A stretch of 64,000 bases of DNA from NCBI RefSeq assembly GCF_964204645.1, contig NC_134035.1, positions 5,642,501 to 5,706,500 on the forward strand. The letters are read 5' to 3'. Each line of letters starts with the position of its first letter. The stretch's first letter is position 1. The notes below the pieces were generated by a model that searched no databases, had not been told where the DNA came from, and saw only the letters and a program-made list of their open reading frames with translations. Below are positions 10,624 through 59,201 of this stretch, piece after piece. Both the position numbers and the translations under genes were made by a program. Source of the stretch: Tubulanus polymorphus (taxonomy: Eukaryota > Nemertea > Palaeonemertea > Tubulaniformes > Tubulanidae).

Positions 10624-12132
10624 CCGAAAAGCATGCTCCGCAGTAATGCGACGCCCAGTCTGGGGGCCTCCCCACAAAACTAATCTATAATACCATTCCC
10701 TAAGATGCATTCTCCGAGCAATCTGGTGAATATTTTCCTAACACTCGAACTTGGAGGTCACTGACATTCGTTACAACGTTTCAATTACTAGTATAGGCCT
10801 TTTTGAAATGTTACCAGAACATATGTCACAATTCAAATCAAAAAAAAAATAATTCCGAAAAAATTATGAAGGGCACTTTCTGAAACGGGGGGGGGGCGTG
10901 AACGGACGAACGCCCCCTGGCAACGGGCCTGGCTTATATATAAAGCATCATGTAAATTTGAATTTTGATGACGTATCAATAATGATTAAAAGCTTTTTTC
11001 TTCATTTTGCAGCTATGTTTTTACGATTGAAATCAGCAGTATTTCAGCAGTCAGATTGTCGTTGGAAGCTGATTATAATTCAGTCTGTATGATGGAAGAT
11101 GAAGAAGTCGAATGGTGCGCCGTGCCACGTGGTTGAATTATCAGCTGGTGTCACTTCGGACGCGCAACGATCGTTCATTTCTACAGCTTGCTCTAAACTG
11201 TGGTACGTCTATATATATCTAGTCATTAGATTCATCTTCAGGGCCCAGTCATGGCTTAGACTCAAGACCAATTTAAGACCAATTTAAGACCGGATTTCCC
11301 CGTGCGTTAGAAATAAAAGAAAACAATGCCAATAAAGGTCACACCATGCTTTCACTATCGAACCAGCGAGAACACTGTTGATCGTAAGCATTAATGTAAT
11401 AGGCCCCATCAGATTTGAACAGAGCGATAAACATCATTGCAGACAAAGGTCACTAGGGGGCAGCAATAGCTCCTCGGGAAGCTAAATCAGAAAATTCTTT
11501 AAACAGAAAATGCCCTTTAGAACTCAAAGTAGGGACAAGGATATCCATATCCTTCGAGATCAACGATAAGATATTTACATATTCTAGGCTATAACGATTA
11601 TCAAAAGTTAGAATGAATTTATAAGAATGGTGACCATTATCGTCTGCTAAATCTATTACCCTTCTACTTCAAATCAACTAAATATCGTCTGCTAAATCTA
11701 TAACCCTTCTACTTCAAATCAACTAAATATCGTCTGCTAAATCTATAACCCTTCTACTTATCAAATGAATATTCTTAAAGTGTACGTTTTCCCTCCGAAT
11801 TTTGCAGGTATTGTTGCAGCCACTGCAATGTGGAACGCTGGGTGCTGAACCCGTACAGTAACCTATACTATTACTGGCTAGCTTTCGTATCGTTCGCCTG
11901 CGTCTACAACATCCTGATGATAATCGTCAGAGCCGTGTTCATCGATCTGCAGGTTCAGTACCACGGTCTCTGGTACAGCATGGATTTCCTGTGCGATGCC
12001 GTCTACCTTTTTGATATGATCGTTCGCTTTAGGACAGGTAGGTGGAACGAGCGGCGCCGAACGATATCATCAAAGGACAGAGGGAAACGTGTGAAATTGA
12101 GATGATGAGATGAAATGGCGCGATGCCTTAAG
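10624..12132 (+). repeat. Tandem duplication, copy 1 (1,509 bp)
   Basis: Every segment compared here reappears exactly 1,509 bp downstream, including a 10-base G run, a 9-base A run and the 45-bp internal repeat, so the copies look identical. The junctions share the three bases CCG (10624, 12133, 13642), as in microhomology-mediated duplication. The unit carries two CNG-channel exons. Inside, at about 11639-11770, a 45-bp unit beginning ATCGTCTGCTAAATCTAT repeats three times. Confidence 0.97.
11099..12037 (+). other. Upstream duplicate pair of CNG-channel exons
   Basis: This is an identical copy of the exons at 12608-12711 and 13317-13546. It comprises an ATG-containing exon (ATG 11099, donor TG|GTACGT after 11202) and the S1-S2 exon 11808-12037. 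Joining them reads ...SKLW-YCC... in frame. The S1-S2 exon is 230 nt, not a multiple of three, so splicing both copies into one mRNA would shift the frame. Only one can be used at a time. It may be a usable alternative, a silent duplicate, or an assembly artefact of two haplotypes. Confidence 0.75.
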
Positions 12133-13641
12133 CCGAAAAGCATGCTCCGCAGTAATGCGACGCCCAGTCTGGGGGCCTCCCCACAAAACTAATCTATAAT
12201 ACCATTCCCTAAGATGCATTCTCCGAGCAATCTGGTGAATATTTTCCTAACACTCGAACTTGGAGGTCACTGACATTCGTTACAACGTTTCAATTACTAG
12301 TATAGGCCTTTTTGAAATGTTACCAGAACATATGTCACAATTCAAATCAAAAAAAAAATAATTCCGAAAAAATTATGAAGGGCACTTTCTGAAACGGGGG
12401 GGGGGCGTGAACGGACGAACGCCCCCTGGCAACGGGCCTGGCTTATATATAAAGCATCATGTAAATTTGAATTTTGATGACGTATCAATAATGATTAAAA
12501 GCTTTTTTCTTCATTTTGCAGCTATGTTTTTACGATTGAAATCAGCAGTATTTCAGCAGTCAGATTGTCGTTGGAAGCTGATTATAATTCAGTCTGTATG
12601 ATGGAAGATGAAGAAGTCGAATGGTGCGCCGTGCCACGTGGTTGAATTATCAGCTGGTGTCACTTCGGACGCGCAACGATCGTTCATTTCTACAGCTTGC
12701 TCTAAACTGTGGTACGTCTATATATATCTAGTCATTAGATTCATCTTCAGGGCCCAGTCATGGCTTAGACTCAAGACCAATTTAAGACCAATTTAAGACC
12801 GGATTTCCCCGTGCGTTAGAAATAAAAGAAAACAATGCCAATAAAGGTCACACCATGCTTTCACTATCGAACCAGCGAGAACACTGTTGATCGTAAGCAT
12901 TAATGTAATAGGCCCCATCAGATTTGAACAGAGCGATAAACATCATTGCAGACAAAGGTCACTAGGGGGCAGCAATAGCTCCTCGGGAAGCTAAATCAGA
13001 AAATTCTTTAAACAGAAAATGCCCTTTAGAACTCAAAGTAGGGACAAGGATATCCATATCCTTCGAGATCAACGATAAGATATTTACATATTCTAGGCTA
13101 TAACGATTATCAAAAGTTAGAATGAATTTATAAGAATGGTGACCATTATCGTCTGCTAAATCTATTACCCTTCTACTTCAAATCAACTAAATATCGTCTG
13201 CTAAATCTATAACCCTTCTACTTCAAATCAACTAAATATCGTCTGCTAAATCTATAACCCTTCTACTTATCAAATGAATATTCTTAAAGTGTACGTTTTC
13301 CCTCCGAATTTTGCAGGTATTGTTGCAGCCACTGCAATGTGGAACGCTGGGTGCTGAACCCGTACAGTAACCTATACTATTACTGGCTAGCTTTCGTATC
13401 GTTCGCCTGCGTCTACAACATCCTGATGATAATCGTCAGAGCCGTGTTCATCGATCTGCAGGTTCAGTACCACGGTCTCTGGTACAGCATGGATTTCCTG
13501 TGCGATGCCGTCTACCTTTTTGATATGATCGTTCGCTTTAGGACAGGTAGGTGGAACGAGCGGCGCCGAACGATATCATCAAAGGACAGAGGGAAACGTG
13601 TGAAATTGAGATGATGAGATGAAATGGCGCGATGCCTTAAG
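12133..13641 (+). repeat. Tandem duplication, copy 2 (1,509 bp)
   Basis: Second copy of the unit at 10624-12132, directly adjoining it with no spacer. It ends ...GATGCCTTAAG before unique sequence GGTCGACC. This copy lies nearest the CNG 3' exon. Confidence 0.97.
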
Positions 13642-42285: not shown

Positions 42286-42779
42286 GATATTTGTACCATA
42301 TCTTAGACGATAGATTGAAGAAATTTGTGAACTTGAAGTCATCGGAAATGTGATGGAATATGTTTAAGTAACTCCATTGTAAAATGATGCACACTCTGAA
42401 TTCTTATTGTTACATGCAACAACCAGACAGGCTGCTACATATTTTTGACAATCTCTTACACAATTCACATCAAAATCATCTGCCAATCATTGCTTTCTCT
42501 TGGCACCGTATATATTGGATAATGATGAAACTTGTATTGTGGAAAGATAATAGGCCTACAGCCTGATTTTTTACTTTTAAGCACTCACTGTGTTTGTATG
42601 CCTTGGTCTTTGTAGACTTCAGCTTAAATAGGGGGATGTCTATTGTTTTTTGTAGGCTGTTTGACTAAGTTAGATAGTCACGGGGTACTGTCTGTTTGGC
42701 TAGAATCCCAGAGTATGGTGATTAAAAATACCTGTGTGTAGTGTATATATCGTTATGATTTAATAATTTTTTGATAACT

Positions 42780-42785
42780 AATAAA
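42780..42785 (+). terminator. Candidate poly(A) signal of DRC8
   Basis: AATAAA in AACTAATAAAAAGCGG, about 495 bp after the stop, before a GT-rich stretch. Confidence 0.5.
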
Positions 42786-42923
42786 AAGCGGTCATCGCGA
42801 ATTTTCAAATACTTTTTATCGTCAATCCCTGAAATCTAGGCCTTATTAGTGGTGTGTTAAAATATCGATCCATATCTTGTTCCATTGACGTTTTGAAATG
42901 ATGCCATTTATTGAAGAAAAACC

Positions 42924-43183
42924 GTTCGTTTTAGATCAAGATTTATATTTATTTGTGCAATCAGCATCGAATAAAAAGAGAGCGTGCTGGACGGAGCTAT
43001 TCAAATCTAACAGATGACTCGGAGGCTAATCTGGTGCGTGACTTCTTTCTATTTCTGCCTACTAATAATCAGCCGAGCTGTATTTACGACGAATAACCGA
43101 ACGACAGACGGACACTAGCGAACTATTGTTTTACGAACCAGCGTTTCACGATGAAATCCTTGCCTGGTATTTCAACATTCTAC
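42924..43183 (-). repeat. Distal duplicate of the FABP terminal exon
   Basis: This 260-bp copy repeats 43197-43467. It holds a complete terminal exon (43179-43123: acceptor TATGGTAG, 57-nt coding part NVEIPGKDFIVKRWFVKQ, stop TAG) and its own AATAAA signal (42948-42953, minus strand). The coding part is identical to the proximal copy, while the 3' UTR part differs at many positions. Confidence 0.85.
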
Positions 43184-43196
43184 CATATATTCTACA

Positions 43197-43467
43197 GTTC
43201 GTTCTAGATCAAGATTTATATTTATTTGTACAATCAGCATCGAAATATAAAACGAGCGTGCTGGACAGCTAGTCAATTCTAACAGATGACTCGGGGGGGG
43301 GGGGGGGGGCTAATCTGGTGCGTGACTTCTTTCTGTTTCTACCCACTAATAACCAGCTGCGCTGTATTTACGACGAATACCCGAATGACAGACGGACACT
43401 AGCGAACTATTGTTTTACGAACCAGCGTTTCACGATGAAATCCTTGCCTGGTATTTCAACATTCTAC
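43197..43467 (-). repeat. Proximal copy of the FABP terminal exon unit
   Basis: This copy carries the exon 43463-43407 used in the gene model, a poly(A) signal (43221-43226, minus) and a run of about 18 G in the 3' UTR part (about 43293-43310) that the distal copy lacks. The two units adjoin with a 13-bp gap. Confidence 0.85.
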
Positions 43468-45583
43468 AATACATTATGACATAAGCGGTTGATTATTTTA
43501 TCAAAACGAAGACTGAAACAGGACACAATCATGAAACGGGTATACACCACTAGCAGTGGACAAACAGTAACCTGTCTTGGGTTTAGTTTCACGATCGGAT
43601 ATTTTCACAAACCACATATGGTAAAAAAGCCCATCCGATTACCAAAGCTTACCACCAACGATTAGGTAACTAACTAGCAGTGGAACAGCATACAGAATAG
43701 CAAAACATACGTGAAAACTTTCAATTCATTGTCCGCGAATTAAGTTTGAGCATTTTAGCATATGTGTGGAGATACGAAATCGATTGCATAGAACTCCACT
43801 TCATAACATGTATGGCATATGTTTAGTACGACTACTCACCCACATCATCATGTCCCCGTCCATCGCCCGAGTTTCAAAATGATGAAATGCTTTATCACTA
43901 ACAGGTTGCATTTCAGTTCGCAGTGTACCTTCAGGTTCCCAAACGGGAGTTCCCTGAAATAAACGGATACGAATTTTAGATCGGGCGAGGCCGCGTGTAT
44001 CGCAGTAACAACTTCATTCATCACAGTATAACAACTAATGGCGACTAAAAATGTTGATGGAGATTAAATGTTGATCTGGTTTTGAACAAACCTTGAATTT
44101 TCGCCCATCTGGACTTTCGAAAGTGTACTCTTCACCGACGTTGAAACTGAATTTCAAATTTTTCTTCACCGGTAAATGCAATTCGATGTCGAAATGGTCG
44201 CCGTTCTGCTCGATTTTCTGCGTGGGTTTATTCCCCTTCGCTATTTCCATTCCCATTTTCTGCAGAAGACCGGCATCTACAAAACAATTCAACCCGATAT
44301 CATATACGGGGCATCCTGACCTTTATTGGTACAGCCTTTCGGCTAAGGGATCTAATTAGCTACGTAATCGTTGGCGGTAAGCTTTATTATTGGATGGGCT
44401 TATTGTGAAAATATTCGATCGCTTAAACCATGGACGTATAAACTAGATTAGACGTCCATGCTTAAACCAAACCATAGACAGGTTACCGACTGAAATTAGC
44501 AAATAAATAATTCTTCGATCTATTAACAATTATAACTTTTTTAAAGACACAGTTTACAGTGAAAAGCCCAATGCATTTACCGCAAAGAAAGGATTGAACA
44601 ATCTTCAAAAAAATCGCATAGATTGAGTGTCGTATTATTTTCTTTTGCCCCCGAATCGCAGCCACCATAGAAAGCTGAGTCATATTTATTGAACTGATAT
44701 TCAATGGATTTTCGGTCTTACATAGATAATTGCGGTATGATTCCGTCGTGTAATAAGATCTTCCCCGGAGGCATAAAACGCGTGAATATATAATACATAT
44801 ATTATTACTACTATTTCTTAGTTGTTTTTTTTAGATAAGGGAATAATGTAAGATATGGACTGTATTTTCTTGTTATGTTTTCCCAAATCAAGTGAATCAA
44901 TGAAAGGTCTAAACACCTTTCTTTATTCAATGCTTCCAAAGCTACATCGCGTAAAGTGTGCAATTAACGGGTCAAAAACAGTACTGTGCCATTTAGGATA
45001 TAGAAACCCGATTTAAAATTTATGTTAGATTATTTAATGTTATTGAAAGTGAAAATTGACGATTAAGACTTAGTTAGAAATATTACGTAATTATATAGAA
45101 TAATACAAGCCCAACGCACACACGGCAAAACATTTGTTTCATCAAACAAAAAACCACGATTTTCATAAAACGTTTTGAGTAAAAGTTTTACCTGCAAACG
45201 ATAAAACGTTCAACGCACATGGCATAACAAAAACACATCGAAAACGCGGAAAAATGTTTCTTCCTTGCCGCATGTCCGTTGGGCATAGATACAGGGTTGA
45301 GTCTAGTTCCATAGTTCTCGGATAACATTTTATCTGCTACGACGAAATCATCAGAAATGCTCAGTCAAACTCTAAACCGAGATCTGTGGATCTGGGTCCT
45401 GGGAAACTGTTTTAGACTTAGGCTATATATCGCTACTGAGTTTAAAATGAACACGAACCCAACCGGAGCCGCGTATGACATTATTATTTACACTATACCT
45501 TCTTTGAGAAACGCAAAAAATTTGTCGAGATTTTCGCTCTTTTCCAGTTTCCATGTACCAGTGAAATTAACGCTCTGAGCCAT
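43407..45583 (-). CDS. Fatty-acid-binding protein (iLBP family)
   Basis: A cytoplasmic ten-strand beta-barrel carrier for fatty acids or retinoids. Four exons: 45583-45499, 44276-44092, 43953-43840, 43463-43407. They total 441 nt and 146 aa, with the classic FABP four-exon layout. The N-terminus MAQSVNFTGTWKLEKSENLD matches the family signature; exon 2 carries GDHFDIELHLPVKKNLKFSF and GEEYTFESPDGRKFK. Exon 3 has GTPVWEPEGTL..DGDMMMW, and the end KDFIVKRWFVKQ gives the usual barrel-closing Arg two residues before an aromatic (KRWF, as FABP R-x-F/Y). The frame stays open 51 codons upstream to an ATG at 45736. I prefer 45583 because of its AAACATGG context and family length. A second usable terminal exon lies at 43179-43123. 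Which paralogue it is cannot be told. Confidence 0.9.
43550..43690 (-). repeat. Dispersed GTTAGTTACCTAATC repeat, copy 2
   Basis: It lies in FABP intron 3. The minus strand reads GTTAGTTACCTAATCGTTGG, GGTGGTAAGCTTTGG and CGGATGGGCTTT. It is bounded by CCACTAGCAGTGG-like and CTAGCAGTGGA ends. Confidence 0.75.
44345..44490 (+). repeat. Dispersed GTTAGTTACCTAATC repeat, copy 3
   Basis: It lies in FABP intron 1, inverted relative to the copy at 43550-43690, so the pair flanks FABP exons 2 and 3. It includes a small hairpin CCATGGACGT..ACGTCCATG near 44427-44460. Confidence 0.7.
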
Positions 45584-46631
45584 GTTTACGGTGTGTTCGG
45601 GTGTATAGGCTGGGATGTGTTCCGAGTGGAGTGACTGCGGTAATAGATTTTCCTGTAACGATGGAGATTGCACACACAATTCAGGAGAGATCGATGTTTC
45701 GTGGCATTTTGTATAATTGTGATTCAAAGCAGCCATAATTCATTACTAAATCATCATCGTCATTTATACAGCTATGCGAATATGTATTGAATGAATAAGC
45801 AACATTAATATCTTAAATATTCTTTATTTAGGCCTGCATTGAAACTGTCATGACCTCAGACATAAGAACCATCTTTAAAACCTTTCACTTCCTTCGAAAA
45901 AAATTAGAAAAAAAATCCATTTACGAAACTCATCTCATCTTCGGCGTGTACCCCAGTGTTGTGTGCAATGGTTATAAAGATGTGCAAAGTATGAGAAATT
46001 ATTTAAGTCACACATTGAACTTACCAGATCTAGAATCACCGGCACGAATGAGTAAATGCGGCCTCGTCTGATTACCTTAGTCTCTGTCATCGCGCAGTCC
46101 CTGGCTGTGCGTCACAAAAAAACATGCCGTGATTGGTGCAGGTTTTTCAGACGGTAAAAGCAGGAAAATTTCTTTTGGTACATTATGAATGAAAGACCCT
46201 GAAAGGATCTACGCTGGGGCGGTTTTAATTAGATAGTAAGAAGAAAGTTCAAATTCTAGGCCGCTTTTTAATAAACTGCCTGGAAACCTCCGGCGCAACT
46301 GAGCACGGAATGACTGAGGCCCATCTCACTAAAACAAATTTGCTTTACCGTCGTGTACTAAAATGACCATATCGGAAACTGCAATGCAAAATTACCGATA
46401 ACAGATTACTCATTTAGGCGTACCGTGGTAGGTCTTTGAATCAACAAACTGCGTGGCCGTAGGACAGAAAACCATTGATCCCGCCGCCCCGGCGTAGGGG
46501 CGGTACTATACTTCTACTTCGACCAATTTATGGCCACCATCAACCAGTTGATGATTTTGCCATCGAGAGGTGCATGAAAAAATTATTTTATTTTTTTGGG
46601 TGTTTATTATGGTTTTATTCAAAAAATTGCC

Positions 46632-47056
46632 CCAATGGCGTTAGGCAGTTAGGAGAGACTTGAAGGCTTCAAAGCTCTCGGTGGTCACCGTTGTGGCGGG
46701 TAAGGCATTCCAATCAGCGATGGTCCTTGGGAAAAATGACCACTTGCGTGCTTCGGATGAACACGTTGGCCGCTGGAATGCATGCTGGCTCAGGCCTCTG
46801 GAGTAGCGTATTGGCTTGACGAGACGAGTAGTGGTGTCTAGGTTGGCCATGCTTGTACATCATGGCTAGTCTGCATCATTCCTGCGCCTATTCTCCAGTG
46901 TCGGCCAATTCAGCTTCACCAACATTGCTGTGACGCTTGAGCGGTTGTGTTGACTATTGGTGACGAACCGTGCTGCTCGACGTTGGACCATCTCTAGTTT
47001 TCGGATATCTGAGGACTGGTGAGGATCCCAATACAACGCTGGCATATTCATTGGTA
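46632..47056 (-). pseudogene. 5'-truncated LINE ORF2 C-terminus
   Basis: The minus strand encodes YWDPHQSSDIRKLEMVQRRA and ARFVTNSQ, then in another frame FFPRTIADWNALPATTV and SFEAFKSLL. This is the C-terminal tail of a CR1/Jockey-like non-LTR retrotransposon polyprotein. A frameshift or stop near 46860 separates the halves. Only the last roughly 140 codons remain. Confidence 0.85.
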
Positions 47057-47689
47057 CGGAAGAATTGCCAAAATTGTCTTAATCAAGTTGAATAGAGAAA
47101 ATATAGACATTTTGAAATGAGTAAATGCTAAGCAGCATTATCCAAACATCTTATGTTCTTTGTAAAATTTGTTTTGCCTTTTTTGTAAACCCAATGAGAA
47201 TATCATAGCACAATAAAGCAAATTTGAATTTGTTATCTAACAAATTGATTGATTGTATTGAATTCATACGTCGAGTAACATGGTACATTTTCTTTGTGAA
47301 TTTTGAACAATTCTTTTTAAAGATTGTTTATTCGGCTATTGCTTTTTGTCAAGAAAGTATTTGATCATTCGTCAATTGTAAGTTGCTTCTAATGACTGAG
47401 AGCACGTCTAGTGCGCATTTACCGATCAATTATCGCCCGTAGTTCTGTGAAAATCAGGCAAAACTGATTCAATTCAATTCAACAATTTATTGAAACGAGT
47501 GAGTAATGCTACAAGAAGGAGTACATTGTCATTAAGCCATATTCTTATTAGGCGGAATACCGGTATTCTTGCTTTATTTTTTCACAGATGAGTGTGTTGA
47601 TATGAATTAAAGTAAATTACAAGCTTCAACATGTTGTTCCTTGGTAGGTAAATCGCTGACATTCTCTTATGCACAGAAGTGGTTTGTAA

Positions 47690-48412
47690 TAGGTAGTGCG
47701 TGGTGCACCGGTCCTCCTCATTACCAAGATGAAGTAATTTACCGAGATCAACTGAGATGACATGAAGTATAACATAAATATTTATTCCTTATCGATTTTA
47801 ACACTTGAAATCATATTATATCAGTAATAAATGCCTGCTGGAGGAGTCATATTTCACATATTTTGTCGGATATTTTGTAGAAAAATAACTTTTGACTTTA
47901 CCGAGATGAGATCAAGGATCGATCATATTCAAATTTTATAATCAATATCCTAGCATGTCGAACGTAAATGATAAAGTCAAATTTGTAACTATAATGTCCT
48001 CTATAGAAATGGCCAAATATTTAGGGAAATACATCGAGAAAGGGTCTAACTCATGAAAAAAAAACAATCTGAAATCTGAGTGTTACGTCGCAGTATCCAT
48101 TAATTAAACTATCACTGATTCACTTACTGAAAACCTGTCTACATCGTGTATATATGTATATTAAACTGTTATATGTATTCCATGTAATTTTATTGCTAAC
48201 CGAGATGACGTATTTGAAGTCAAAATTTTTTTAACCAAATATCTGGAAAAATATGTGAAATATGACTCTGGAAGGTATTTATTACTGATATAACATGATT
48301 TCAAGTGTTAAAATCGATAAGGAACAAATGAATATGTTATATTTCATGTCATCTCGGTTCATCTCGGTAAATAATGTCATCTCGGTAATAAGAAGGACCC
48401 ATGGTGCACTAC
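47690..48412. mobile_element. 720-bp foldback element with about 200-bp arms
   Basis: The left arm 47690-47910 (GTGGTGCACCGGTCCTCCTC, CCGAGATGA.., ATTTCACATATTTT) and the right arm 48195-48412 (.., ATGTCATCTCGGTAATA, AGGACCCATGGTGCAC) are inverted repeats. Multiple CCGAGATGA blocks lie in both arms. No coding capacity. Confidence 0.8.
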
Positions 48413-48618
48413 TGAATACCAAAGTAAACCTTTTCAATGGCAATGCTTTAACCCTTTTGACAATACAACTAGCCTGAGTTGAACAAGCAAAAGTATTTAT
48501 AGGATTGAAAGTTGTTGTGTCTCAAATAAGGTGTTGATAGATAGTAATTAGGGCCTACGCTTATTTGATTAAGATAGAGACATCAGACAGATCTGCAGCC
48601 TAAAAATTGGCTTTTCAG

Positions 48619-51600
48619 CATCCCTGGACCCATATAGCGGTAGCTATTGACTATATTTTTGACTATACTGTTTCAGAAGTACCCGAGGACGTCGTACGGA
48701 AATGTTTAATCAACCATTTAGAACTATTCGACGATATAATCATCAGTGCAGACGAACCAACTTGGTCGCGATGGGATCGAAAACGCAAAAACACGCTCCA
48801 TTTTCATCGTAATACGACAACGACGTCCTGTTGTAAGTATTTCTATTCAAAATCTATAAATCGCATCGCGCGAGTAGTCTACACGGATGTGCTGATTTCG
48901 CAGCTATGGTGGAACGAAGTTTTCAAAGTCACTGCGATGGGTTATAACAAATCTGAGTACCGAACATTTTTATATCAATCAATCTATCGATTTTATAAAA
49001 AAATTTTATTGTTATTTATATTCTGTGTTTATTTTGATTGATCGTGATAGCGCTTCAGAGTAATTTTGTGATTAAAGCGCTCTTTTATTTTGTACGACAT
49101 AATAAATGAGGATCAATCGGGATAACAAGTACTGCGATAGCATAATGTAACGAGCATCCCACTGAAAAGACGAGAAAATAAGTTTAAAACAGGCGCGCTG
49201 GAAGCAATTTTTGATTGCTGCGGCCAAATACCGATTCTGGACAGGTTCTAAATATTGCCGCAGTGAATTTACTTAATTTCTTCAAAAACGTGGTATAGAA
49301 AGAAAATACGTCATTCAGTAAATTATTGCCGCGGCTTTCGCAGCTGCAGTCGCTGCACTTCCAACGCCTCTGTGAAAATGTTTCTTTGAGCTGCTGGTAG
49401 TTTATTCAACGTTTCGACTATAAACTTCAGGAATACAGGAAACATTTTCGGACTTAATCATTGCGGGATTCTAGTTGTATTATCGTCTCAACGCGGATAT
49501 AGCGTTTTATCAACGGTGGATTGCGATAACACGTCTAGCGTTTGAATTATCAACTCCTGGGGGTCGGTCTCGTAGACCGAGTATCTAAGTTATCGCGAGG
49601 GCTAAATCCTAAATCTGGTTGACAACCACCATAGTAACAATGAAAAACCATTGTTATAACTAACAAATTTCAAAATGTTCCCGGGGACTATTTTTCTTCC
49701 ACATCTATGAAACCTGGTTATTCGCCACTCGTGGTTATTTCTTTTCTAGTGAGTCAACAACAACCTGTTTCAGAAGGCAACAATGATTCGTTTGATAACG
49801 ATGCGAAATCGAGATCGGATGAAAATGCGCCTCGGCGTTCGTCGAATTGCGATTTACGAATCCCGAGCACGGTCACCGAGCACGAATCGCAGACGGCGTC
49901 GACGATACTACCGGTTGAATCGTTACCGGTGTCGATCGCTATGGAAACGGACTTCGTAACCACCGCTCCGGACGTCGAGCGAACGGAAATCTACGGCGAT
50001 CAAGCGATTAAAGCTTGCGACGACGATGAAAATGAAGATGACGTATTAAACGATGAGGAGGATTATAGCGGCGCGTACTCGTCGTCGGAGCGGATTGCCG
50101 ACGAGTTCTTGCAGCAAAACGGCGGTGATTCGTGGACGAATCGGGGAGATTCGCATGACGTACATTCGTCGCTAGTTCACGCAGAATATTTACACAATAC
50201 GGAGTCTCACAATCACATTACACAATCTGCAGGTAAAATATGACAACATTCAATGCTTATAGATTTTGTAAGCATTGATGTAACACTCTGAGAATATATG
50301 AGGGAAAGATAGAATCCCTGAGTTAATGATATAATTTTGACGTTTCAACTTAACGCTGATAATAGTCATCTTCGGGAATACATATGAGATCCAACAAATT
50401 GGTTAGACTCTAGGTACCGGTCCCAACTTTGTAAAAAAGTTGATCAAAGTTGATCGGTTTTATCGGGGAATATCTGCTGTCTCTAGGGGCTGGCTTTATA
50501 GACTGGTATCGACTTTAACCCGAGGGTTAACTTAATTTAAAATGAATTGAGTTAGCCCCCGGGTTAAAGTTAATACCGGTCTATAAAACCAGGCCCAGGG
50601 TTCTACAACCTATAAACCCTGGATCGATGAGAATAGGGACCGATGGCTAAAACCGCTGAAGCGTCGCCGCTAGTTTTTATTATCTCTCATTTTTAAACAG
50701 GTATCGATATGAACGAAGGCTTAGAGAACGATGAACAGGAGGGGATTACAATAAAAGAAGAGCCGCCCGACGAAATAGAAGAGATCGTATCAGAAGATGT
50801 GCTCACTGCTCATCTACCTGTTCCGCAGTCATTCGCAGAAGGTGAGTTCTATATATTTCATAATATCTTCTTATTAAAATCAAACGGGTCTTTTATGACT
50901 GTAGAACGAATGTAGCGAGACAGACTGATCTACAACAGAGGTCGTTAATGCCTGTAAAAAGTTGAAATTGTACTCGGATTTGTTTGTTTGACTTGGAATC
51001 TCGGAGAATTCTTCATAAGAAAACAAGAAAACAACGTGATAACGGCTTGCATCGTTGTTTACACGGAACTCTGGTTTTGCGAGCTCGGATAAAATTCGGT
51101 CCGTCCATGAAACGGAAGAACAAAGTTAAACTAGTGTATAGTATGTACGTGTAGCGTGATAGATGATTGAAGACTGGATGTACGTAGCAGTTTGAGAATG
51201 ATCAGTTTCGACGCCTGCTTGTACGGTGCAGTGATGGTCGCGGGATATGGTTTTGTTTTTCCGGTTTCTGTGACAATTGATAACCTTTAAAATGTCGCTG
51301 CAAGAAATGATCGACGTTGGATTTCACGATTTCTTACAAGAGTGTAATGTTGGATTTTAAGGAATCGACATCCGGTATACATTTCGTATAGAGTTTGCTC
51401 ATGACATCGTTCATTGCATTCACCGCATGAGGAATTGTTCCATTCAATTAGTATTGAATGGTGTCGTTTATGGAGGTTTTGCAGCCTCGTGCTTTTTCCG
51501 CTTTTCCAAGATCCTTATGGTTGTAAATCCTCTGATTATTTTGTCTGACTTAATGACAAGTACGCAGCAAGTCTCTATACATATTGGGCAGGGATTTACA

Positions 51601-52415
51601 CAGCAAAACGAAAGCCACTTTAAACATTGAAAATAAAACTCAACACTATTACTTACTCTCTAACACCGATATAGTATTTGCACATGGACGGCTTGTGAAA
51701 AGTAGCAGCTTGGTACAAGGGGATTACTGGTTGAATGGTCCCTTATAGGTATAATGCTGAACTGTACGTTTTCCTCCCTGTTTTATGATTACCCCCGGTA
51801 CCCATTTTGAAGACAAATATCGATAAGAACGCGATAAAAAAAATCAATTTGCGAATTGAATTGATCGACGACAATTTGCTGTTTTCAGATGCCTGGATTT
51901 CTCCACAGCAATGGAATAGTAATTTGGTTCCACCGACAGTTTTCCCGCCGGTCGCTTACGACGACGGCTTGCCGATGACGGTGCGAAAATTACGCGTATC
52001 GAATCCGGTTCTAGCGGCAAGTCGAAGACGTTCGGCGCAAACGGTTAGCGGTGTTAGAAAATCACGTTCTCGCACGGGTCTTACCGCGGCGACCGCGCGT
52101 AATATCGACGATAACGAACGAACCGAGAACCGACGACCGACCGATAATAATCGTCACGCGGATTACGTCTTCAAGTGTCGCGATTGTCCGAAGATATTTC
52201 GCCTGCTGAACAGTTTGAAAGCGCACGTCAGAGTTAAACACTCGGGTATCGTGTTCGTCTGCGAGGTTTGCGGCCGGAGTTTCGATCGTAAATATTCGTT
52301 GCAGATTCACCTGGCTGTTCACACCGGCGAACGAAGACACGTGTGTCCCGTGTGCGATCGTCGGTTCACTCAACGCGCGTCGTTATTCACTCATATTAAA
52401 ACGTTTCATGAATGA
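48619..52415 (+). CDS. C2H2 zinc-finger protein, isoform with terminal exon A
   Basis: This is a partial gene model because the 5' exon(s) are unknown. Shared exons are 48619-48832, 49750-50232 and 50701-50841, all ending in phase 1. Terminal exon A is 51889-52415. The shared part (at least 278 aa) is not a BTB or other domain I know. It has an aromatic/acidic segment (EVPEDVVRKCLINHLELFDD), Ser/Asp-rich sequence and a TIKEEPPDEIEEIV block with a psi-K-x-E SUMO-type site. Exon A adds 174 aa: D.WIS..Q.W at its start, a basic linker, then three C2H2 fingers (CRDCPKIF..., CEVCGRSFDRKYSL..., CPVCDRRFTQRASL...) linked by HTGERRH. It is likely a nuclear DNA-binding regulator. Exons B and C are alternatives. 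Confidence 0.8.
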
Positions 52416-52743
52416 AACGTAGCTTTACGGGTGAATCCACCTCTGTCTCCTCTCGCAGTTCCGCGCAAAAAAAACACACGTCTCAGTCGCTTTAGAAGCT
52501 TAGATGACGAGGGCGACGCCTAGTGTCAACTTTCGAGCCTCGATGAACACTGCTGATATGTTAGTGCGCAATACCCGACGACGGTCCCTTTTGAGAGACC
52601 GAAAGATATTTTGAATTGTTAGATGGTTATCTTCAATAGATTCAAATGTTATACACAGTCCAATAGATTTCAGTGTTATGCGGTCGAACCTTTTCCCATA
52701 AAATGGGTTCCTCTTATCCGAAATTAAGCAGATTCTACTGTAG

Positions 52744-54345
52744 TTGGGTTTTTAGCCCACTTGGGACTTTAGTCCCAGCGGGCTATTGCGTTCACTTTTC
52801 GTCCATCGTCTGTCCGTTCGTCCATCCGTCCGTCCGTAGACGGAATCCAGTTATTTTGGGAAGTTTTGAAGACGCTTCAAGGTAATGTCTTGATATTTGG
52901 GTTACACATGTATCTACCCTAGACACATCTTCAGCCCAAAAACTGGCCCTATCAGAATCAAGATGGCCGACTGGCAGCCATTGTTGTTCGTCAAAATCAG
53001 CACTTTTTACACATTTTTGAACTTTTTGAGGGAAATTTTGAAGACGCTTTGATCAATTACCTGAATCTTTCGGATATATGTGAATCCCCCCAGGGCCCAT
53101 CAACATAACAAAAATTGGGTCGGTCGGACTAAAGATGGCCGTCCTATGACCTTTTTAGTGCCCAAGAATGTTAATTTTGGCCCAAATTCTGAGTCCTGTA
53201 GCTTCCTACTGGTTTGCCATTTCTCATTACAATTTGTGATGGGTATTCTTTGGAAAGGGATGTTTTATACCTGAGACAGGTATTTTTCATCAGCCAATTA
53301 TGACGCAATTGGCGGCCATCTTGGTGTCACCAGTACTCATTCGTAAGTGGGAAAAAGTTTTTCCACATTATATTGATACCTAAGCATATTTTGCTACCAC
53401 CATCAATTAGAAAGTTGTAGCTCATAACATGTTCTATGATTGTGGTGAGTTTCAAGGTAATTGGATTTCGTATATGGCCACCAGGGGGCGTTGAATAATA
53501 CAATATCTTAGCATTTCTTTATTATATTCGTACCTATGCATATTTTGTAACCACAATCAATTGGAAAGTTGTAGCTCATGACATCATCTATGATTGTTGC
53601 GAGTTTTCTATATGGTCACCAGGGGGCGTCGAATAGTAGAATAACTTAGTATTTCCTTATTATATTGGTACCTAGGCATGAGGAGAGAATCCCACAATGA
53701 TAATAAAAAGTCCGAAAATGAAACTTCGAGATAGTAGTTTATTTCAACGTTTCGACTATATCCTAATAGTCATCTTCAGGAATAATGATGAAGATGACTA
53801 TTAGGATATAGTCGAAACGTTGAAATAAACTACTATCTTGGAGTTTCATTTTCGGACTTTTTATTATCATTGTGGGATTCTCTCCTCATCGCGTCAACAC
53901 GGATATAGTGTTCTACCAATCGTGGTACCTAGGCATATTTTGTTACCATGATCAATTGCAAAGTTGTAGTTCATGACATGTTCTATGACTGTGGTGAGTT
54001 TCGAGGTCATTGGGTTTTGCCAAAAACTGGCCTTGTAGCTCATGGCATGTTCAATGATTGTGGTGAGATTCAAGGATATTGGGTTTTGAATATGGTCACC
54101 AGGGGGCGTTGAATAGTAGAATGAATGACTTAGTATTTCCATATTAAATTGGTAACGAGGCATATTTTGTTATCACAATCAATTACAAAATCGTAGCTGT
54201 TGACATGTTCTATGATTGTGGTGAGTTTCAAGGTCATTGGTTTTTGTAAATGGTCACCAGGGGGCATTGAATGTTGAAATTGTTAGATTGTTTAGCATTT
54301 TAAACCACTTCCCAAGTGGGCATGGTGTCCCTGGACCCCTAGTTG
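52744..54345 (+). mobile_element. 1.6-kb non-coding element with 'CCAGGGGGCGTTGAATA' repeats
   Basis: It starts TTTTTAGCCCACTTGGGACT with a TTAGTCCCAGCGGGCTA hairpin partner and a GTCCGTCCGTCC tract. It then repeats about four units of roughly 150 bp (GATTGTGGTGAGTTTCAAGG, CCAGGGGGCGTTGAATA, TAGGCATATTTTGTTACC). It ends GTGTCCCTGGACCCCTAG|TTG. A CTAG end beside a hairpin is Helitron-like but not proof. It sits between cassettes A and B and is interrupted by a younger insertion at 53680-53922. Confidence 0.65.
53680..53922. mobile_element. 243-bp hairpin insertion with 14-bp target duplication
   Basis: TGGTACCTAGGCAT occurs at 53666-53679 and again at 53923-53936, where sister units of the host repeat have it once. 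The inserted DNA is an almost perfect hairpin: GAGGAGAGAATCCCACAATG ... CATTGTGGGATTCTCTCCTC, with AACGTTTCGACTATA in the arms. Relatives lie near 3040-3140, 7627-7740, 49385-49520 and 50290-50400. Confidence 0.9.
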
Positions 54346-54729
54346 TTTTTATTAAGTATAGCAAAGTTTAGTTAGTTTTATAGATGAATACAGTGAACTA
54401 CAGCACCATAACCTATATTGTATAGTCCAGTGTTGATGTACACCGATTCAACTGACCTTGATTATTGAATATTAATGTGGACACTCCGTTATAAGTTGTG
54501 AAATCCAACATTCATTTCATTTTATATAGCATTTAATTTGTTTGACGTTTTATATTTTTAGTTTGTGAAATACTTTGAAAAATATCAATAAAAGTACGGT
54601 ACATTTTTGTGTTGTATTCTATTCTTTGTTTTTCGTCTAATTTGTAATTCTTAAAAATCTTTCCAAGCTTATCTCAGCGGTTTACAGAATCAGCTCGCAT
54701 CATGGAGACTTGATAATACTCGACTAGTG

Positions 54730-54975
54730 CATTGTACTTCTCAATCGTTAAAATGTACCCAATGCAGAGCGGCCAATTGTTCCTGATTTTCAGTATTACT
54801 ATTTTATGCTGATTTGATTTGTTTGATGATGCATACCGTAATATGAAAGATGTTACTGAAGCTCTTACCTTTGATTGCTGATTGATTTGAATACTTTCTT
54901 TCATACTTCGATGAAATGTTATTGAAAAAAATGCAATTTGTAACCGATAGCACTTTTCAGAGGTTGGCAGCCCTG
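54730..54975. repeat. Partial relative of the 57741-58134 element
   Basis: It shares GATTTGTTTGATG, ATATGAAAG.TGTTACTGA, TTTCTTTCATA, ATGAAATGTT and CAGAGGTTGGCAGCCCT with the element at 57741-58134, lacking its left terminus and its internal duplications. Confidence 0.75.
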
Positions 54976-55300
54976 CCGACAGTTTGACAGACTGCCCACT
55001 GACATTCACCTGACTATTTTACAATATTTTTATTCAATTTGACCTCAGTCACTTCTTGAAACAGATATTTTTGGCAAAATTCCTTTGTGAACTAATTTAC
55101 TACTCTTTTAACTGATACCGTAAAACAAACCGTGATGACTTTTAACTGATACCGCGCGCTAAACATCTTTTGTATTGAACAACGTTTTAAGGAATAAACT
55201 ATCAATGATAAAATTGATCGATGACGATATTTTTCGTTTATTACGTTGTTGTGTTTTTTTTCCCGTTCTGATCTGATCGTTGCTTTTGCTGCTCTTTCAG

Positions 55301-55953
55301 ATGTGAACTGGATCAGCAGTCTGCAGACGTGGTGTAAGTCTCGACAGCGTCCGTGGAACGCGACTAGCGGCACCGATCCGTCGGTCAGATCGACATCGGT
55401 TCACAACAGCGTGCGTCGCGCGAACTCTGAAATGAGAGGAGCGGTCACGTCTCCGGGCTGGCAGCGCAACGGAGAAAACAACGGAAGCGCCGTCTCTGCG
55501 AAACGCGCGGTGTCGAGAAATGCGGCGAGTCGGATACCGCGGAGGTTTCTTGCGAGCGATAATAACAGACGAAATCATCGTCCGTCTGCTGAGAACGAGG
55601 CGACGGTGACGACGCCACGGCGATTTCAACAATATCATCAACGAACGAATAAGAACGATTCGTCGTCGTCGTCGAGTTCGTACGTGCCGATCGTCATGTA
55701 TCAGTGTAAACAGTGTCCGAAAACGTTCACGATCCTGAACAGCCTGAAGGCGCACGTCAGTCGTAAACACTCGGGGAGGTGTTTCCCGTGCGACATCTGC
55801 GACCGCAAGTTCGATCGACGGTTCCTGCTGAAGGAACACCTGCGCACGCACACTCGCGTGAAGTCGCACGAGTGTCGCGTGTGTCGGAAGAGCTACACGC
55901 GCGCCGTGTATCTGAAAACGCACATGAAAGACGCGCACGGCATCGACTTCTGA
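55301..55953 (+). CDS. Alternative terminal zinc-finger exon B
   Basis: An acceptor GCTCTTTCAG precedes 55301 and the frame (216 aa) begins after two bases, the same phase as exon A, so it can join the shared donor GAAG|GTGAG at 50841. It starts DVNWISSLQTW, echoing DAWISPQQW of exon A. After a basic, Asn- and Ser-rich linker come three C2H2 fingers: CKQCPKTFTILNSLKAH, CDICDRKFDRRFLLKEH and CRVCRKSYTRAVYLKTH, ending HGIDF. The first finger shares NSLKAHV with exon A, so A and B look like tandem duplicates with diverged DNA-contacting positions. Confidence 0.82.
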
Positions 55954-56181
55954 GATGCGGTGTCGTCGCAGCAACAGGGAATGATAAAAACATTCTCTTC
56001 CTATTAGTTTTATCACGTGTCGTTAAACCCACAGACTCCTCATAGACTTCAGGACTCAATTCCGCAGTGGATGGTTGAATATAACTCTAGTCTATCCGTC
56101 TGTTAAAAATCTAACTGTTTTTTGGTCAAATTTGAGTGTCAGTTTATGTTTAACTGAGAACTATGGAACAGGTATGACTCT

Positions 56182-56290
56182 GGACTCAGTTCCACAGTTG
56201 TGAATTAAGATTTAACTCAAGAGTTAACTCATTGAAAATTAACTAATTCTAACTCGGAGTTTACTCTAACAACTGTGGAACCGGATCCAG
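56182..56290. mobile_element. CAGTTCCACAGTTGTGAGTTA palindrome, copy 4
   Basis: Starts GGACTCAGTTCCACAGTTGTG and ends ACAACTGTGGAACCGGATCC. It lies between zinc-finger cassettes B and C. Confidence 0.85.
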
Positions 56291-56806
56291 GGTATGAAGG
56301 GTAGTAAGACTCCCGGTTAGCTTCTAACTGGAAACTGTGGAGCCGGATCCTGGCGTTCGAGTATCCGGCAAGCCTCTTAGGTTTTGTGACAACCACCGCA
56401 TGACTTAAAACCTTCTTGAATTTTGTTAAAGGGGTTATTTCAGTTTAGTGACACCTAGAACACGCTTCTAAAACCAAATACCCCATCAACCCCTAAACAC
56501 AGATTCAATGACTTTCTCCACTTAGATGAGTTCGACTATGAAAATCTATATTTCGGTATATGCAATAAACCGTTACCCAGACATGGCCAACTCGGACAAA
56601 AGCAAATCATTTTTCTGACTTCTTAACGTAATTTCCTATCGTTGACCAGGACTGGGACTTCGTTAACCTCGGACTGATTTTGATCGGTCCCAGTTTGTCA
56701 GAGTCAGGTGAGGTTTACTGTACAGGGAACTCGGGAACTCTTATAGATAGAAATTTTGTATTTGAAATCAAATAAACTATATTTATACATCATTGTGTAT
56801 TTTCAG

Positions 56807-57687
56807 GCGCGACCGTGCTACCGAGTTTCATCGAAGCGTTATCAGCGCGAAGATTACCGATACCGTCTCTGGTCAGCCATCATCATCACCAACCACCACT
56901 AGGCGGCGGCACCGACGAACACCGACAACTGCGGTACGAGTCGTCTCAGTTGATGGCAGGCGCGATACGCCGCGCGAGTTTACGAGATTCGCCCGGTCTA
57001 CACAGTCCGAACGAGATGTTCGAATGCCTCGCATGCGGCGAACGGTTTGCGGACGAGGAATCGTACCGCGTACACGGCCGGTTGCACCAACGCAGCGCGG
57101 CGAACAGCGGCAGCAGCAGTCCGGCGTTATCGCTCGAACGGCTGATCACTCGATTCGAATGTCGAATTTGCGAGCGCGTCTTTACGCAAGAGACGCACCT
57201 CGCGGCGCACGTTCTGACGCACGGCGATAACGACGCGTCGCCGTGGCACGCCGAGAATTCCCCGCTCGCCGGAACTCATCAAAAACTAACGGAACTTCTC
57301 ACGACGCCATCTCGAACGGACGGTGAGGCCCCTCGCGGAAACAAGCGCTGTAAAATCGACGCGAAAACGACCGACCCGGAACGACACGCGTCGACGAGTC
57401 CAGCGTCGTCGCGGGTGAAACGTTGTCAACTGTGCGATAAAGTTTTCTATCGTCAATACAGTCTCGATCGACACGTCAAAGATGAACACTCCCACGACTC
57501 ATCCGGATTGTACGATTGTCGTTTGTGCGGTCATAAGTTCGCGCGCGATTACCTACGCGTTCACATGCGTATACACACCGGCGAAAAGCCGCACGAATGC
57601 GCGATATGTAAACGTCGTTTCACGCAGCGTTCGACGATGACGCGACACGTTAAACTAGTCCATCCACAGTCTATCTCTCAATTGTAA
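56807..57687 (+). CDS. Alternative terminal zinc-finger exon C
   Basis: The acceptor TATTTTCAG precedes 56807. The frame starts after two bases (292 aa), so the exon is spliceable to the same shared donor as A and B. It carries five C2H2 fingers: [67 protein letters not shown] (one residue short between Cys and His) and [17 protein letters not shown], with one canonical HTGEKPH linker before the last. It lacks the WIS..Q.W start of A and B, so it is a more distant cassette. The exon could instead be a separate gene, but it has no own ATG near its start. Confidence 0.8.
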
Positions 57688-57740: not shown

Positions 57741-58134
57741 GGGCTGCCAACTAGCTGTTCCCGATTTTCATTATTTCGCTACTATTTCGACCCAAGAGAA
57801 ATACTGGTTTGATTTGTTTGATGCATACAGAAATATGAAAGGTGTTACTGAGGGTCTTACTGTTGATAACCGATTGATTTGAACAGAAATATGAAAGGTG
57901 TTACTGAGGGTCTTACTGTTGATAACCGATTGATTTGAACAGAAATATGAAAGGTGTTACTGAGGTTCTTACTGTTGATTACCGATTGATTTGAACAGAA
58001 ATATGAAAGGTGTTACTGAGGTTCTTACTGTTGATTACTGATTAATTTGAGTATTTTCTTTCATATTTTAATGAAATGTTCTTGTTAAAAATTCAACTGG
58101 TTACTAATAGCACTTTACAGAGGTTGGCAGCCCT
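57741..58134. mobile_element. MITE with AGGGCTGCCAAC termini and internal 56-bp repeats
   Basis: The left end AGGGCTGCCAACT and the right end GGTTGGCAGCCCT are inverted. Inside, a 56-bp unit (AACAGAAATATGAAAGGTGT, then TACTGAGG.TCTTACTGTTGAT) repeats about four times. The 54730-54975 copy has one unit, so the array expanded after insertion. Confidence 0.75.
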
Positions 58135-58274
58135 AATGCAGATCCTACACTTGTTTTACTGTATTTATCCATTTAGATTTGTAACTTACGTACCAATGAT
58201 TGAAACAACTAGCTGTGAGTCAGGCCACTGTGGGTTAGAAAGGCTATGATATTCCTGTTGCTGGACTAAATAGC

Positions 58275-58505
58275 TAAGATAGGTTCAGATATGTGTAGGC
58301 CTCACTGAAATAGGAATGGTTGAGATAGGTGTTGGCCATACTAGAATAGGTTCAGATATGTGTAGGCCTCACTGAAATAGGTTGAGATAGGTGTTGGCCA
58401 CACTAGAATAGGTTCAGATATGTGTTGGCCGCACTAGAATAGGTTCAGATATGTGTAGGCCTCACTGAAATAGGTTGAGATAGGCCTCGTTAGATTAGGT
58501 TGAGA
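58275..58505 (+). repeat. Minisatellite of AATAGGTTCAGATATGTG units
   Basis: Alternating blocks GGTTCAGATATGTGTAGGCC and AGATAGGTGTTGGCCACACT are repeated irregularly about eight times. Confidence 0.85.
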
Positions 58506-59201
58506 TACGTGATTTTTATTATGAGTTGGAAAATCTTACTTCCTCAAAGTCATGGAAAATGTTCCAAGTTGAAACACTGTATACCAGTATAACGAAATTG
58601 GGTGATTTTATCGAATGAATTTTACATTTATTTTTATGTAATAACGATAATCTTATCATAGAAATATTGATAATTCTTTTAGATATCAAATTAATGTAGA
58701 TTGATATCGTGTCGAATTGTGTTCACGAAGTTTGTTTTTAAATTTCTCTAGAACTGGATGATAATAAATATGTTTTTAATGAAACCAAGAAAAGTTCTCT
58801 TTTCAGCTTACTTGGGATGCAGCCCCATTCATCCATCCACCTGTCCTTAGATGAAATTTAGTTTTTTTGGAATTTTTTGACATAGATTGCCTGTTTTTGT
58901 TGAAGGAAATCAGCAGTTTTGCATGATTTTGTCTGTTGCACTAGAGTCGCTAAACTCACGGAATTGTCGCCAGTAAAAATGATTCCTGATATATTTAATT
59001 TTCAACAGTGTTTCTCATTTTGAAGGTTACTGTATTTTGTGTATAAGTATAAGTTTTGCCACAGAAATCTAAAATGAATTCTAGATGTTATACATGTGTA
59101 TGAAAGTATTCATATTATATTTCAGTTGAGTCATTTTCTCAATTTGTACTAGAAATTTGTTTACTTGGTTATTACAATGGTCCAATATTTATCCTAGAAA
59201 T

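Follow-up and report, generated by a model that had tools for sequence, protein, structure and literature searches.

Does a locus with three successive exons that each carry a set of C2H2 zinc fingers encode one protein with interchangeable DNA-binding ends, or do the three belong to neighboring genes of their own? We analyzed such a locus within a 64,000-nucleotide stretch of DNA (hereafter, the window) that is part of a 268 Mb genome; all positions are window positions unless a contig is named. Toward the start of the window, a 108-aa ion-channel-like frame occurs twice with identical translation (11779–12105 and 13288–13614, 1.5 kb apart), within a CNG/HCN-type channel gene; the second copy arose either by a recent duplication in tandem or as an artifact of the assembly. 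The locus itself occupies 48.7–57.7 kb of the + strand and consists of six coding exons, of which three are shared and three are terminal, the latter referred to here as A, B, and C. We consider it likely that these form a single transcription-factor gene in which a shared N-terminal part ends at a common phase-1 donor for which A, B, and C are alternative partners, and that this gene belongs to a genome-wide family defined by its N-terminal module.

Shared exon 1 (48677..48832, + strand) encodes a helical module of ~38 aa (EVPEDVVRKCLINHLELFDDIIISADEPTWSRWDRKRK...), is phase 1 at both ends, and contains no methionine. A preliminary description of this DNA had begun this exon at 48619; we place its start at 48677, on the basis of the codon at which acceptors fall in paralogous exons and of the point at which homology sets in. 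For all six exons, the predicted frame surpasses non-coding controls in codon usage; this signal is weakest for exon 1, whose coding support comes from homology. Lacking a methionine in exon 1, translation must begin in another coding exon farther 5' or within exon 2, and the interval 45750–48676 held no candidate 5' exon with a good phase-1 donor. Just 5' of exon 1, at 47780–48380, there is an inverted repeat (ATTTCACATATTTTGTCGGATATTT..., with its complement near 48250). Exon 2 (49777..50232, + strand) is an acidic linker of 152 codons with an open frame and coding-like codon usage. Exon 3 (50701..50841, + strand), also acidic, contains the SUMO-site-like sequence IKEEPPDE and supplies the final base before the common phase-1 donor. 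The layout of three shared exons stands as first proposed, but the junction between exons 1 and 2 is less certain than was stated: the acceptor of exon 2 is a NAGNAG (CAGAAG) whose two AGs give starts at 49774 and 49777, and only the second preserves the frame, as the first joins T+AA across the junction to make a TAA stop.

The common donor (50842..50847, + strand; AAG|GTGAGT, cut between 50841 and 50842) is among the 0.03% of GT sites in the window that score highest on a simple home-made scale; splice sites were rated by such home-made scores throughout. This bears out the earlier placement of a phase-1 donor at 50841. Downstream, on the same strand, lie terminal exons A (51889..52415), B (55301..55953), and C (56807..57687), each entered in phase 1 through its own acceptor (TTTTCAG|51889, CTTTCAG|55301, and TTTTCAG|56807) and each consisting of a single open frame up to its own stop, at 52415, 55953, and 57687. 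Only 1, 4, and 7 aa follow the last finger in A, B, and C, respectively; tails this short cannot accommodate another donor, and with stops 1–7 codons past the last finger, all three are, as drawn, terminal rather than internal. Every coding intron of the locus is phase 1, and skipping exon 2 or exon 3, each of which lies between two such introns, would leave the frame intact. The nearest canonical poly(A) signals in the window lie 0.6–1.3 kb past the stops of the terminal exons. Repeats flank these exons as well: a hairpin element whose long inverted arms carry AACGTTTCGACTATATCCTAATAGTCATCTTCAG and its complement sits between A and B at 53720–53900, and two minisatellite-like tandem repeats, with units of approximately AACAGAAATATGAAAGGTGTTACTGAGG and ATAGGTTCAGATATGTGTAGGCC, are found 3' of C at 57800–58060 and 58270–58510.

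Pfam recognizes three C2H2 stretches in A, three in B, and five in C, and the PF00096 E-values (6e-18, 1e-13, and 2e-19, respectively) place all three exons among C2H2 zinc-finger sequences; one of the five fingers of C is short-spaced (CX2CX11H). Acceptors, frames, and Pfam matches together agree with the preliminary description of three exons at 51889, 55301, and 56807 that share an entry phase, have their own stops, and carry three, three, and five fingers. The predicted DNA-contact residues of the first finger are nearly alike in A (LNSA) and B (INSA), and the remaining fingers differ, reading RYSI and QAST in A and RFLE and RVYT in B; the four canonical fingers of C read DESV, QTHA, RYSR, and QSTR. 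Isoforms ending in A, B, or C may have distinct DNA targets. Exons A and B open with D.WISPQQW and DVNWISSLQTW, and their origin by tandem duplication had been argued from the pattern D..WIS..Q.W that these have in common. Taken alone, the pattern is only weakly significant (934 of 20,000 shuffles), and the proposed origin is better supported by the fingers: the best match of A anywhere in the genome is B (E 1e-20), followed by C (5e-16). Exons A and B are very diverged from each other (dN 0.65, dS saturated). Some terminal exons of a large array on C8, described below, have the entry motif NWSPWQQ; employed as a profile against A and B, this motif gave no significant match.

Genome searches with the shared part, for which the preliminary description had called for a profile search, divided it in two: exon 1 has many paralogues, and exons 2 and 3 have none anywhere in the genome, making them unique to this locus. 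Exon 1 matches ~45 paralogous exons, for a family of ~46 copies in all (these counts are lower bounds), with the consensus xVxExxLxxCLxxHLDxLDxIVxxADExTWxRWxxxRxx (alignment A1). At several paralogous loci the module acceptor falls at the identical codon, in phase 1, and homology starts there. An AlphaFold model of the module consists of three helices with a pLDDT of 90–94 in the core. Pfam searches with exon 1 and 21 relatives yielded no match other than one to PAH, whose E-value of 0.039 is at chance level for 22 queries, and the named N-terminal domains ZAD, KRAB, and SCAN are absent from the module by the same models. Neither sequence nor fold comparison (Foldseek) found a relative in the PDB. 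Kinship with the N-terminal helices of PDE5 was rejected on a profile score below zero. The earlier impression that the shared N-terminus is not a BTB domain was right: Pfam gives no match, to BTB or to any other model, in exons 1–3 or in the three forward frames of 42301–48700, and of 57 BTB matches genome-wide, none is on this contig and none is in the C8 module cluster. Matches to zf-AD do occur elsewhere in the genome, none of them at module loci: these are near-identical copies of a weakly ZAD-like segment of 60 aa, dispersed over 36 places on all large contigs and probably a mobile element. The module probably functions in protein contacts, and it is apparently undescribed; the open-access papers that we searched contained no description of it, or of arrays of this kind outside arthropods.

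Elsewhere in the genome, C2H2 reading frames were found downstream on the module's strand at 17 of 20 sampled module loci, and none was found on the opposite strand; the other three had no fingers within 6 kb. The best donor of the module exon is phase 1 in 23 of 25 cases (p 1.5e-9), a result that comes mostly from unlinked loci. Correspondingly, the best acceptor of the finger exons is phase 1 in 55 of 67, with one third expected by chance; these comprise 27 of 34 in the C8 array and 28 of 33 in the window and at other loci. Phase p-values are too optimistic insofar as array exons are related by duplication. Several loci contain more than one short finger frame with a stop and a phase-1 acceptor (four each at L034 and L035, two each at L031 and L038). 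Two others, L040 and L042, look like conventional finger genes of several exons, in which the finger exons are phase 0.

The largest array lies at C8:11496001-11536000 (loci L050–L053), where one module exon has its own start methionine and a donor (AAAG|GTTCGT) in phase 1. Within 40 kb, at least 34 C2H2 frames follow this exon on the same strand, each with its own stop. A profile search detected no second module in this interval, which opens the 55-kb stretch leading to the next module and covers 40 kb of it. The surrounding 250-kb cluster contains ~15 module exons and further finger matches. Poly(A) signals show no enrichment after the stops of the array, and we rejected them as a mark of terminal exons on these grounds. 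The ~46-copy family would share one phase-1 join of module to finger exon, and its arrays would comprise anything between a single terminal exon and dozens. The analogy to lola and broad drawn in the preliminary description gains strong support in turn, as the layout recurs at paralogous loci, including the array of 34. Overall, the initial observation is partly confirmed and its interpretation partly supported.

Could A, B, and C instead be the ends of separate, neighboring tandem-duplicate genes with their own promoters and 5' exons, only A being joined to the shared exons? Tandem duplicate zinc-finger genes are common, the gaps of ~2.9 kb between A and B and 0.85 kb between B and C could house promoters, and in-frame ATGs are present within the pre-finger parts of all three exons. 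Set against this, a profile search detected a single module in the window and none ahead of B or C, every finger frame opens near a phase-1 acceptor that fits the shared donor, and the pattern is repeated at unlinked module loci and in the array of 34, which leaves separate genes an unlikely account. A different possibility is that the terminal exons are separate transcripts that are trans-spliced to the shared part, as occurs for many mod(mdg4) and lola isoforms. Long terminal-exon arrays do resemble those two genes, for which trans-splicing is documented (PMC11426971, PMC4667647); however, all finger exons that we found lie on the module's strand and downstream of it, and the compact 9-kb locus in the window needs no such mechanism. 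We regard trans-splicing as very unlikely here and infer joining in cis, the simplest arrangement for a locus of this size; the long C8 array may use joining in trans, as mod(mdg4) does.

Related terminal exons at other loci have dN/dS ratios of 0.13–0.71, indicating that they are maintained as protein. Changes between close pairs are enriched at helix positions -1, 2, 3, and 6 (44/120 versus 49/240, p 0.0013); excluding structural positions gives p 0.05. Least probable of all is that one terminal exon is in use and the others are decaying leftovers of duplication, since, for all that duplicated exons often die, that stops interrupt one finger match at another place in the C8 cluster, and that A and B are so diverged, B (653 bases) and C (881 bases) remain fully open, retain their zinc ligands, and have good acceptors, and related array exons have dN/dS below 1.

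The best reading of the locus is one of alternative terminal exons, as predicted from its layout, in the manner of lola and mod(mdg4) with a different N-terminal module. Weighing against it are the lack of poly(A) enrichment after the C8 stops, the missing 5' coding exon, the dependence of the exon 1–2 junction on the second AG, and the module loci with phase-0 finger exons or with no fingers nearby. Under this one-gene reading, a single transcript start and the shared exons would provide the module and the acidic linker, and the donor at 50841 would be linked to A, B, or C, with B and C used as alternatives to A and each terminal exon bringing its own fingers, stop, and 3' end. Judging from anatomy and family, the products would have a common partner-binding end and differing DNA-binding ends, and arrays would enlarge through tandem duplication of whole terminal exons. 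A more sweeping proposal, which we consider as likely as not, is that a hitherto undescribed N-terminal module gave rise to a genome-wide system for producing DNA-binding specificities, and did so in a probably non-arthropod animal: ~46 module exons, many with private arrays of interchangeable terminal exons, one of at least 34, duplicated by exon and diversified at DNA contacts, such that the lola/mod(mdg4) principle would have been reached independently and multiplied across a genome. No arthropod cuticle domain was detectable in this genome, a result that is suggestive only, the search tool's 14 controls having been silent for that family. A search for mollusc hemocyanin also gave no detection.

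The best-known genes with many alternative terminal exons for DNA binding are arthropod BTB genes such as lola and mod(mdg4). A separate and much larger set behind a different module, if true, would mean that the principle had multiple origins. One genome would then supply dozens of natural arrays in which to study how one donor chooses among many ends, and material for following the evolution of DNA specificity by duplication of exons rather than genes.

In lola, as in broad, tramtrack, and fruitless, shared N-terminal exons lead to a common donor, beyond which lie several terminal exons, the majority carrying C2H2 fingers of their own; of the ~20 isoforms of lola, 17 have different C2H2 fingers (PMC11426971, PMC1947980). 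In its layout, the locus in the window has the same architecture of several C2H2 terminal exons behind one donor of matching phase. The two differ in the N-terminal part, which is a BTB domain in the lola group and an unrelated-looking three-helix module of ~38 aa here, and in number, with ~46 module loci in this one genome. TTK-type BTB domains are reported to be arthropod-specific (PMC11426971), and because the defining BTB domain is absent, we place the locus outside the lola/mod(mdg4) family. The large arrays more closely recall mod(mdg4), in which one 5' part serves at least 30 alternative 3' exons (PMC4667647). Yet mod(mdg4) combines BTB with FLYWCH fingers and is partly trans-spliced from both strands, whereas the arrays described here carry C2H2 fingers, all on the module's strand.

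KRAB, ZAD, SCAN, and FAX define lineage-expanded C2H2 families with an N-terminal module of their own. Like them, the present family has a short N-terminal helper module, tandem clusters, and change concentrated at DNA contacts. Its module, unlike theirs, fits no Pfam model, and the unit of multiplication is different: in those families whole genes have multiplied, each with its own module, whereas here arrays of finger exons share one module exon.
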